From positions 186,001 through 250,000 of the forward strand of contig JANQEE010000006.1 of the NCBI GenBank assembly GCA_028278525.1: a stretch of 64,000 nucleotides of DNA, in the 5' to 3' direction. Positions 10,324 to 59,819 of the stretch are shown here, in pieces; position 1 is the first letter of the stretch; each line of letters opens with the position of its first letter. The DNA comes from Minwuiaceae bacterium (GTDB lineage: Bacteria > Pseudomonadota > Alphaproteobacteria > Minwuiales > Minwuiaceae). The notes under the pieces were generated by a model. It was given only the letters and a program-made list of their open reading frames with translations. It was not told the origin of the DNA and did no database searches. The position numbers and the translations under genes are program-made.

Positions 10324-11636
10324 CAATAGACCTCGGCGTACCGCTTACACTGTTCGTCGAGGGTAAGCTCCGCCATCAGGCCGATCTCGAAACGTTTGTG
10401 CGGCAGATAGCCTTTCAGCAGGTTTGCCGGCAGCCAGTTCTTCGCGACGTCGTCGGCTTCCAGGGCATCCAGCGCCTCAGCCAGCGACCGCGGCAGCACG
10501 GCGATGCCGGCGGCGGCGCGTTCGTCCTCCGACATCTCCTCCGGATCTCTGTCGGTAATCGGCGGCGCGGGCAGCTTCTCGCGAATACCCTGCAGGCCCG
10601 CATAAACCAGGATGCCGAGCTGCAGGTAGGGGCTCGCCGCCGCGTCGGCGGCCCGGAACTCCATATTGAACTGCTTGGCGATATCGGCGTCGCCGATCTC
10701 GACGACCGGGCAGATCCGCAAACAGGCCTCCCGGTCGCGGAAGCCGAGATTGGTGTAGGACGCGCTCCACCGGTGCGGCACCAGCCGCTGATAGGAAACC
10801 GTGCTCGGCGCGGTCAGCGCGCAGATGGCCGGCGCGTGGCGCAGGATGCCGGCGGCAAACTGGGCCGCAACCTCGCTCAATCCTCCAGGTCCGCTCTTGT
10901 CGTAGGTCACCGGCTTACGGTCGAGGTCGTGCAGGCTCATATGCAGGTGCACGCCGTTGCCAACCACCTCGTGCGTGACGAGCGGCGAGAAACTCACGTT
11001 GTGCCCCAGCCGGTGCGCCGTGGCCCTGGCCATCTCGCGCAGGATCACCGCCTCGTCCGCCGCTCTAAGGCCGTCGCGCGGCCCGACCGTCACTTCGTAT
11101 TGCTGCGGCCCATACTCGGCCATGAAGCTGTCGGGCTCCAGGCCCGCTTGGCGCAGCGCGTGGATGAACACCTCGCTGAACACGTCCTGCCGGCGGAAAG
11201 CATCCAGGTTGTAGGAACCGTTGGCCCGCTGTTCGACGCCGCTATAGTGGAATTCGTGTTCGAAGGCGGCGAGCAGGGTGAGCCCGGCCTCCTGCTGCAG
11301 GGCCGTCAGGGCGTCCTTAAGAAACGTCCTGGTGCAGCCGCCCCATGGTTCGCCGTGGGTATGGACGATATCGCCAAGCAGGAAATGCTCGGCCGGGCTG
11401 TCGTCGCCGAATTCCACACGGACCTTGGTCTCCGGATCGGGCACCAGCAGCAGGTCCCCGCGCGAGCCCCAGGGCGAGTCGCCGATGTCGCCGAACGCGG
11501 TGATCATCGCATTGGTCGGCACCCAGCCGACGCCGCGCTTCAACCGCGACGCCAACTCCGATGCCGGAAAGCCCTTGCCGCGCACCTGACCCGCCAGGTC
11601 GCAGCAGCACACCATGATCAATTCCTCGCGGTTCAT
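10323..11636 (-). CDS. Glutamine-synthetase-like ligase (glutamyl-amide ligase type)
   Basis: A 437-residue GS-fold ATP-dependent ligase. Metal and substrate positions are visible as F-E-H-E-F-H (near 131-136), A-E-Y-G-P-Q-Q-Y-E-V-T, N-G-V-H-L-H-M-S, R-W-S-A-S-Y-T-N and E-F-R-A-A-D-A-A-A-S-P-Y-L. The lack of standard GlnA landmarks, and the aminotransferase partner, point to a catabolic member such as the gamma-glutamyl-polyamine synthetases (PuuA, GlnA3/4), not nitrogen assimilation. ATG 11636 has a GGGAGG site 6-7 nt upstream. A divergent promoter region of about 120 bp separates it from the importer operon. Confidence 0.85.
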   Translation of the reverse strand: MNREELIMVCCCDLAGQVRGKGFPASELASRLKRGVGWVPTNAMITAFGDIGDSPWGSRGDLLLVPDPETKVRVEFGDDSPAEHFLLGDIVHTHGEPWGGCTRTFLKDALTALQQEAGLTLLAAFEHEFHYSGVEQRANGSYNLDAFRRQDVFSEVFIHALRQAGLEPDSFMAEYGPQQYEVTVGPRDGLRAADEAVILREMARATAHRLGHNVSFSPLVTHEVVGNGVHLHMSLHDLDRKPVTYDKSGPGGLSEVAAQFAAGILRHAPAICALTAPSTVSYQRLVPHRWSASYTNLGFRDREACLRICPVVEIGDADIAKQFNMEFRAADAAASPYLQLGILVYAGLQGIREKLPAPPITDRDPEEMSEDERAAAGIAVLPRSLAEALDALEADDVAKNWLPANLLKGYLPHKRFEIGLMAELTLDEQCKRYAEVY

Positions 11637-57967: not shown

Positions 57968-58375
57968 CTAATCGAACCGTAACGTCATTCGCCCAACGAT
58001 GCTGCCGACAACCGCGCCCACACCCGCCATCGCCCATTCCCAAAGGATCAGCGCCAGCGCATCCAGCGCGGTGCCGGTCTGCGGATCGATCAGCAGGCCG
58101 AGCGGCAGGCCCAGTATCGGGCCGGCGGCCGCGCCCATCAGGGTGGACAGCCGGACCGCGCCGACCGCGTAATAGAACCGGCAGATCAGCGCGCAGCCAA
58201 GTGCCGCGGCCGGCCCTGCCGTCAGCAGGATCAGCCACATGCCCACCGACGCGGCCGCCTGGTCGAAATGGGCCGGCCCGTTGAGTGCGGCGCTGGTAAT
58301 CGTCGCGATGGTGTGGGCGCTTAAGAATCCGATCACGCTGCCGGCGCCCATCGCCCAGGTCGTTCTATGCAGCAT
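57968..58375 (-). CDS. Small integral membrane protein of unknown function
   Basis: A 135-residue protein with about four hydrophobic segments rich in Gly and Ala (G-A-G-S-V-I-G-F-L, W-L-I-L-L-T-A-G-P-A-A-A-L-G, G-A-A-A-G-P-I-L-G-L-P-L-G, G-V-G-A-V-V-G-S-I-V-G). The Gly-x-x-x-Gly patterns indicate tight helix packing. No family was recognised. It is flanked by a kinase gene on the same strand and is divergent from the selenoprotein gene. Confidence 0.65.
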   Translation of the reverse strand: MLHRTTWAMGAGSVIGFLSAHTIATITSAALNGPAHFDQAAASVGMWLILLTAGPAAALGCALICRFYYAVGAVRLSTLMGAAAGPILGLPLGLLIDPQTGTALDALALILWEWAMAGVGAVVGSIVGRMTLRFD

Positions 58376-58629: not shown

Positions 58630-59277
58630 ATGTCGCTTGCCGAAAAACTGGATGCGCTCCGCGAAGCCGGGGCCAAACGCATCCCACCTGATAAGCGCGC
58701 GATAATGTCCCGCGCGACCCAGGATCTTCGCGAGTCGGGGATTTTGGACAACGTCGCCAAAGTCGGCGACCCGTTCCCGGCCTTCGCGCTGAACAACGCG
58801 CGCGGTGCCGAGGTCCGGTCGTCGGATCTGCTGGCCAAAGGACCGCTGGTTCTCAGCGTCTTCCGCGGCAGCTGGTGACCCTACTGCAACGCAGAGCTGT
58901 ATGCTTTGCAGGATGCAGTAGAGACCCTGAAGCAGCATAACGCGACGGTCGTCGCGCTGACGCCGCAACTGCCCGAACACAGCCTCAAGATGGTCGAACG
59001 GCACAAGCTCGGTTTCGATCTGCTGACCGATCCCGGCAACGCCTATGCCGCAGAACTCGGTTTGCGGTTCGAATTTCCCGCCGATCTGCGCGAGGTTTAT
59101 TTGAGCTTTCCGATCGACCTGCCGAAACATAACGGCGAAACGAGTTGGACCCTGCCGGTCCCGGCTCGCTATGTCGTCGACCAAAGCGGCATCATTCGCA
59201 TCGCCGATGTTGACGTCGACTACACGCGCCGTCCGGAGGTGGACAAGACCGTCGCCGACGTCGCGGCGCTCGGCTGA
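58630..59277 (+). CDS. Peroxiredoxin-like selenoprotein (in-frame TGA as Sec83)
   Basis: A 215-residue AhpC/TSA-type thioredoxin-fold protein when TGA 58876-58878 is read as selenocysteine. The upstream part ends V-L-S-V-F-R-G-S-W and the same frame resumes with P-Y-C-N-A-E-L, giving W-U-P-Y-C where Cys homologues have W-C-P-Y-C. Both sides are full-length family sequence: an N-terminal S-L-A-E-K-L-D-A-L-R, V-G-D-P-F-P-A-F-A-L-N-N, then S-W-T-L-P-V-P-A-R-Y-V-V-D. AGGAG stands 6 nt before ATG 58630. A SECIS-like hairpin starts right after the TGA. It should reduce peroxides or disulfides with the U-x-x-C pair. A nonsense mutation is the only real alternative. Confidence 0.9.
58876..58921 (+). 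promoter_or_regulatory. Bacterial SECIS element after the Sec codon
   Basis: After UGA and two bases, CUACUGCA (58881-58888) pairs perfectly with UGCAGUAG (58914-58921). Across a small internal loop, GCAGAGC (58891-58897) pairs with GCUUUGC (58903-58909), closing a UGUAU apical loop. The loop starts 19 nt after the UGA and has G as its second base, as required for SelB binding in bacterial SECIS elements. The hairpin lies inside coding sequence, as usual in bacteria. Confidence 0.88.
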
Positions 59278-59289
59278 GGTCGTTCAAGA

Positions 59290-59344
59290 AAAAAGGGGAC
59301 ATTCATCTTTTCGCAGTTTGCAAAAAGATGAATGTCCCCTTTTT
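59290..59344. repeat. Perfect 22-bp inverted repeat (terminator and/or REP-like palindrome)
   Basis: Arms of 22 bp (59290-59311 and 59323-59344) match perfectly around an 11-nt centre. Each arm contains GGGGACATTCATC flanked by A/T runs, so on either strand the hairpin ends in a T-run. It lies 13 bp after the selenoprotein stop and 8 bp before the convergent gene's stop, so it can terminate both. The AAAGGGGACA...TGTCCCCTTT form also resembles dispersed REP/RAYT-associated palindromes; one copy in the window cannot show that. Confidence 0.85.
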
Positions 59345-59351
59345 CGATCCG

Positions 59352-59819
59352 TTACGACAGGGGCGTCTGGGTCAGTTCTACGTCTTTGATCCAGACGCTG
59401 CCTGCGCCTTCCATGGCCAGGTTGAGCTTCAGCAGATCCGGGCTCTGCCCTTTCTGTAAGAAGAACGTGACTTCATAGGACGCCCAGTCGTTGGTCCCGA
59501 TGATGGCGTGGTCGAAGCCTTTCGAGAAAAATTCGCCGCGCCCGTCGAACCGGCACCACATCTCCAGGTAGGCCTTGTCGGCCAGTCCCTCCGTCTTCAT
59601 CTTCAGGCGCCAGGTGATCAGGCAATGGTCCAGCGGCGGCGGCGCGATTTCGAACAGCGGAATCGTCTGGCCGTCGGAAATCTCAGCCGACCAACCGTCG
59701 CCGTCGACCTTCAGCGGATCCTGGGAGATGGTCGGGTCGGAGGTGGTGAAACGCCTGACCGCGACCGGCGGGCCGGCCGGGACCGGCGCGCTTGTCTGGG
59801 AACGAAACCATTGCAGCAT
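59352..59819 (-). CDS. Uncharacterised beta-sandwich-like protein
   Basis: A 155-residue protein without signal peptide or membrane segment. The second half (I-T-W-R-L-K-M-K-T-E-G, A-Y-L-E-M-W-C-R-F, W-A-S-Y-E-V-T-F-F-L-Q-K-G, A-G-S-V-W-I-K-D-V-E-L) has the alternating strand pattern of carbohydrate-binding-module-like jelly-rolls, where the last strand W-I-K-D-V-E-L is typical. This is fold-level resemblance only. It shares a terminator with the selenoprotein gene. Confidence 0.7.
   Translation of the reverse strand: MLQWFRSQTSAPVPAGPPVAVRRFTTSDPTISQDPLKVDGDGWSAEISDGQTIPLFEIAPPPLDHCLITWRLKMKTEGLADKAYLEMWCRFDGRGEFFSKGFDHAIIGTNDWASYEVTFFLQKGQSPDLLKLNLAMEGAGSVWIKDVELTQTPLS

Follow-up and report, generated by a model that had tools for sequence, protein, structure and literature searches.

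Does the TGA at 58876-58878 of the stretch analysed here (64,000 nucleotides of a Minwuiaceae bacterium genome, henceforth the window) end one gene, or is it read as selenocysteine (Sec) within a single peroxiredoxin-like (Prx-like) protein? The frame in question runs from an ATG at 58630, with a ribosome-binding-site-like AGGAG immediately 5' of it, to a TGA at 59275-59277, and is uninterrupted but for this one codon, which stands between TGG (W82) and CCC TAC TGC (P Y C). When read through, it yields a product of 215 residues with a computed mass of 23.7 kDa and the motif F-R-G-S-W-U-P-Y-C-N-A-E-L. On the comparative evidence given below, we consider it nearly certain that the UGA is read as Sec and that the product is a 215-residue Prx-like selenoprotein. 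The gene and its codon are as follows:

58630-59277, forward strand: putative Prx-like selenoprotein gene, complete (215 aa, Sec as residue 83; homologues are collinear over residues 1-214)
58876-58878, forward strand: in-frame UGA, almost certainly Sec (U83 of W-U-P-Y-C; 18 loci from 16 genomes share this TGA)

The reading frame and the genome that carries it

Translation with table 11 gives two pieces, 58630-58878 (within a longer TTG-started ORF) and 58906-59277, as the sequence-only reading had foreseen for standard annotation; moreover, automatic annotation is likely to truncate the gene because none of the NCBIfam models scored above its cut-off. The Pfam domain AhpC-TSA (PF00578), in contrast to these pieces, spans the TGA site, matching residues 45-190 (E 1.5e-25) with 90 bits against a Pfam gathering score of 26, which places the protein in that superfamily and bears out the earlier view that both flanks are intact family sequence in one frame. 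That reading ended the feature at 58921, which is the end of a hairpin only; the gene itself runs to 59277. The long ORFs that flank it, 57968-58375 and 59352-59819, are both encoded on the other strand, and the gene therefore appears to stand alone; a sigma-70 promoter scan 5' of it gave no match. Directly 3' of the gene, at 59290-59344, lies a long inverted repeat (AAAAAAGGGGACATTCATCTTTT...AAAAAGATGAATGTCCCCTTTTT, -35.7 kcal/mol), the arm of which is present in 11 copies genome-wide, arranged for the most part as inverted pairs; this is a dispersed palindromic repeat that could act as a terminator.

If the codon is indeed read as Sec, one would expect SelA, SelB, SelD and tRNA-Sec to be encoded elsewhere in the genome, as had been predicted from the window. 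A search of the host genome (5.95 Mb in 71 contigs, 98.5% complete) found all four, each above its cut-off and all on one contig, C34: selA at C34:26094-27446 (582.7 bits), selB at C34:27492-29378 (424 bits), tRNA-Sec at C34:31805-31896 (79.7 bits; called SeC with anticodon TCA by ARAGORN) and selD at C34:35016-35933 (300.7 bits). A tRNA-Sec gene nested in selB is known from other Alphaproteobacteria (PMC8124441), but such an arrangement was rejected here, tRNA-Sec being located 2.4 kb downstream of selB. The selD domain is the C-terminal part of a 752-codon open frame (C34:33777-36035) that resembles the reported Ndh-SelD fusions (PMC2398784). Contig C34 also carries two genes of described selenoprotein kinds that are interrupted by TGA: a UGSC selenoprotein gene (L012) between tRNA-Sec and selD, with its TGA at C34:33498 (...AIGD-U-GSC...), and a PrdB/GrdB-like gene (L101) just downstream of selD, with its TGA at C34:36519 (V-U-P-F-C-T), a hairpin 3' of that TGA and a PrdB profile score of 87 bits, below the PrdB cut-off. 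No close Cys paralogue of the W-U-P-Y-C protein was found in the same genome.

Selenocysteine and cysteine forms among homologues

A homologue (threshold E 1e-20) was present in 51 of the 385 genomes of the class that were searched. The TGA form accounted for 18 genes in 16 genomes, with one TGA per gene, and all 18 TGAs could be located, each replacing the first Cys of W-C-P-Y-C, just as the sequence-only reading had placed it. Cys homologues have TGC or TGT at this codon, and selA scored above its cut-off in all 16 TGA genomes vs eight of the 35 Cys-only genomes (Fisher p 1.0e-7); the distance between the TGA gene and selA is about 2 kb in G098 and about 8 kb in G130. When 398 genomes sampled across the phylum were examined, the TGA form appeared only in the host genome and in G074, itself among the 16, and within the host's own family and order (nine genomes) the gene was found in the host genome alone.

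Since the frame is open whatever residue the TGA encodes, one may also consider that the codon specifies tryptophan or another standard residue, via a reassigned code or natural suppression. Against this, the gene itself terminates in TGA, homologues have Cys and never Trp at the site, and the genome has the complete Sec machinery, which leaves such a reading with almost no probability. An error of sequencing or assembly is another obvious suspicion, given that TGA is one base away from TGC and TGT and that stray single in-frame TAGs exist in three Cys homologues (L056, L069 and L093). These TAGs, however, fall at three different places, namely the Tyr of F-Y-R-G (L056), the Trp of S-W-x-L-P (L069) and near residue 11 (L093), whereas TGA occupies the same codon in all 18 loci of the 16 genomes and occurs nowhere else within them. 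As a general explanation error is thereby ruled out; a hairpin and a codon constraint that are specific to the TGA genes (see below) also speak against it, and we give hardly any credence to the idea that the codon in the present gene is truly TGC or TGT. Recoding of the TAGs in L056, L069 and L093 was rejected, their positions being unrelated, and they look like mutations or sequence errors.

A further alternative is that the gene is a nonsense-mutated pseudogene that is decaying 3' of the TGA, in agreement with the table 11 reading, which ends at residue 82. Across 17 Sec genes, however, the median dN/dS was 0.26 upstream of the TGA and 0.27 downstream, so that both parts are under equal purifying selection, and the downstream frame contained no further stop, whereas shifted frames contained 1-9 stops each. 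We therefore regard a decaying pseudogene as exceedingly improbable, and Sec insertion as by far the best account of the codon.

The tree groups 17 Sec genes in a single supported clade (95/91), which also includes one Cys row on a long branch, while L067, the second TGA copy of genome G202, falls outside this main Sec clade. The minimum number of Sec/Cys changes on the tree is three, and gain of Sec is indistinguishable from its loss because the root of the tree is not known. The outlying copy (L067:795-1421; G202:C1, about 10795-11421) belongs to another branch of the family, with 38% identity and a UGUAU hairpin of its own and, judging from these sequences, is a separate Sec/Cys switch. In G303, TGA-containing copies of the gene stand as a tandem pair (L043:1501-3055).

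The hairpin behind the UGA

Bacterial Sec insertion calls for a structure in the message (bSECIS), and the RNA that follows the UGA is predicted to fold into these elements:

58890-58911, forward strand: apical bSECIS hairpin GCAGAGC-UGUAU-GCUUUGC (core 58891-58909; kept in TGA homologues)
58881-58921, forward strand: lower stem enclosing the apical hairpin (predicted fold; not kept in most TGA homologues)

Counting from the UGA, five unpaired bases (UGA + CC) are followed by the lower stem (58881-58888/58914-58921) and the upper stem (58890-58897/58903-58911), which closes on the loop UGUAU (58898-58902) with G at position 2; this is the small apical loop downstream of the UGA, with G within its first two positions, by which a bSECIS is recognised. 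The fold has an energy of -22.8 kcal/mol (z -4.97), and none of 200 shuffles was as good. Among 20,000 synonymous recodings that followed local codon usage, the 7-bp hairpin was kept in 0.31%, and in 0.03% when an equally low energy was also required. It is written in the codons GCA-GAG-CTG-TAT-GCT, of which GCA and GCT are rare locally (0.10 and 0.02 of Ala codons).

The comparison between Sec and Cys genes points in the same direction. Synonymous codon identity at codons +5 to +9 was 0.78-1.0 in Sec genes, where the GAG and CTG codons of the hairpin are invariant, vs 0.34-0.49 in Cys genes, the gene-wide means being 0.45 and 0.43, respectively. Likewise, 88% of the cells of the 7-bp stem were paired in Sec genes vs 51% in Cys genes, and the Sec set fell to 30-49% when the pairing partner was slid as a control. 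Of 17 Sec genes, 14 have UGUAU or UGGAU as the loop, and all 17 have G at its position 2; Cys homologues lack the consensus GAGC-UGnAn-GCU(U/C) of the TGA genes. In L067 (38% identity) the hairpin reads AGAGC-UGUAU-GCUCU. A covariation test on the hairpin of the Sec genes revealed no double compensatory changes, and the support thus consists of conservation and of the contrast with Cys genes, covariation not being claimed. By this codon-level evidence the hairpin of the TGA genes is maintained through synonymous constraint; TGA homologues have retained it and Cys homologues have lost it.

The sequence-only reading had described the hairpin as two-tiered. It does fold so here, and both the loop G at position 2 and the conservation of the upper tier stand, but the lower tier is not conserved, and the two-tier structure was dropped as a common feature, as the lower stem forms only here and in a few relatives. 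Outer stem pairs are broken in more distant Sec genes (e.g. L049, L050 and L058). The UGSC gene of the same genome has GUGC-UGUAU-GCAU, one base closer to its TGA than in the Prx-like gene. When both strands of the genome (6 Mb) were searched for TGA-N15-17-GCTGTATGC, the pattern was found in the Prx-like and UGSC genes only, and the reversed control pattern was found once. In the mechanism that we propose, SelB carrying Sec-tRNA-Sec would bind the hairpin 3' of the UGA, and selenocysteine would be delivered at residue 83.

Active site and relation to known families

The product of 58630-59277 would be a cytoplasmic-type selenoprotein of the Prx fold. Its AlphaFold2 model (pLDDT 92) shows that fold from residue 40 onward, preceded by N-terminal helices (3-17 and 20-35) that lie outside the aligned range, and among solved chains AhpE and BCP-type peroxiredoxins come closest (AhpE with Z 23.5 and 1.4 A over 151 residues). 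Residue 83 stands at the start of helix 84-102 of the model, and when aligned to solved Prx, C86 coincides with the peroxidatic Cys and U83 with the Thr of TxxC. The description "peroxiredoxin-like" is thus apt for fold and family and needs qualifying at the active site, where Sec occupies the Thr position of the Prx motif TxxC. The Sec set shows no variation at R79, W82, U/C83, P84, Y85 and C86, and has no third invariant Cys; from this and from the alignment positions our working model is a U83-C86 redox pair.

It may be asked whether the selenoprotein is instead a true peroxiredoxin-type peroxidase, with C86 peroxidatic and Sec resolving, an alternative that bears on the activity and leaves the Sec reading as it is. 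The Prx fold nearest to AhpE and BCP and the position of C86 favour it, but the classical PxxxTxxC signature is lost (R79-x-x-x-U83-x-x-C86, with R79 for Pro and U83 for Thr) and the UxxC pair resembles thioredoxin. We consider it unlikely, albeit to a much lesser degree than the alternatives to Sec. A Prx fold with a thioredoxin-like UxxC site makes a thiol-disulfide oxidoreductase or a thiol peroxidase likely, and from sequence comparison we favour such an activity, via U83-C86, over that of a classical peroxiredoxin, with far less certainty than the Sec reading. Under this preferred model U83 and C86, in U-P-Y-C at the start of the active-site helix, would act as a thioredoxin-like redox pair; the U83 selenolate would probably make the nucleophilic attack, on either a disulfide or a peroxide, after which C86 would resolve the reaction by forming an intramolecular selenenylsulfide, presumably reduced afterwards by a cellular thiol system.

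Prx-like UxxC selenoproteins, in which an AhpC/TSA domain (PF00578) has Sec first in a thioredoxin-like UxxC (PMC1088965, PMC2398784, PMC13188914), have been known since 2004-2005 under names such as "Prx-like thiol:disulfide oxidoreductase" or, in the GOS survey, "Prx-like 1". The present gene, which is assigned to this kind by its domain and motif (PF00578 and Sec in UxxC), is a well-supported alphaproteobacterial addition. It differs in that the genome-named ones are mostly delta-proteobacterial (Geobacter, e.g. WP_010940744), together with marine metagenomic ones, and in the helical N-terminal part of about 40 residues. Cys Prx-like proteins of the PRX_like2 type (W-C-P-Y-C) share the motif and up to 47-49% identity over the full length, but have Cys for Sec and no SECIS hairpin. 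PRX-like2 proteins have a thioredoxin-like CXXC where Prx have their catalytic motif (PMC3514251), and, judged by this described motif, all homologues qualify as PRX_like2 (cd02970), with U/C-x-x-C throughout. Other families are further removed. The TxxU peroxiredoxin selenoproteins share superfamily and fold, but there Sec replaces the peroxidatic Cys, whereas here it stands where Prx have Thr, with the peroxidatic Cys retained. AhpE and BCP peroxiredoxins share the predicted core fold but have 22% identity, and the aligned motif of BcpB lacks CxxC. The match to SelL and SelL-related redox proteins (NF040769) is weak, at 30.8 bits against a cut-off of 120 bits.

The less familiar part is the spread within Alphaproteobacteria, since an early survey found formate dehydrogenase to be the only selenoprotein of Sec-decoding members of that class (PMC1794560). 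A literature search of limited reach found no paper describing this W-U-P-Y-C Sec clade. We tentatively propose, giving it slightly less than an even chance, that a PRX_like2-type W-U-P-Y-C Sec clade extends across many alphaproteobacterial families, that this one protein family underwent at least two separate Sec/Cys switches (the main clade and the second TGA copy of G202), and that GC-UGUAU-GC is an apical SECIS motif which unrelated selenoprotein genes in a single genome have in common. If true, this motif would reveal the recognition target of these SelB proteins. The finding itself corrects a gene that automatic annotation likely cuts in two and adds a set of redox selenoproteins to Alphaproteobacteria, and with Sec and Cys versions within one well-sampled family it offers a good test set for weighing the cost of the hairpin against the gain from Sec.
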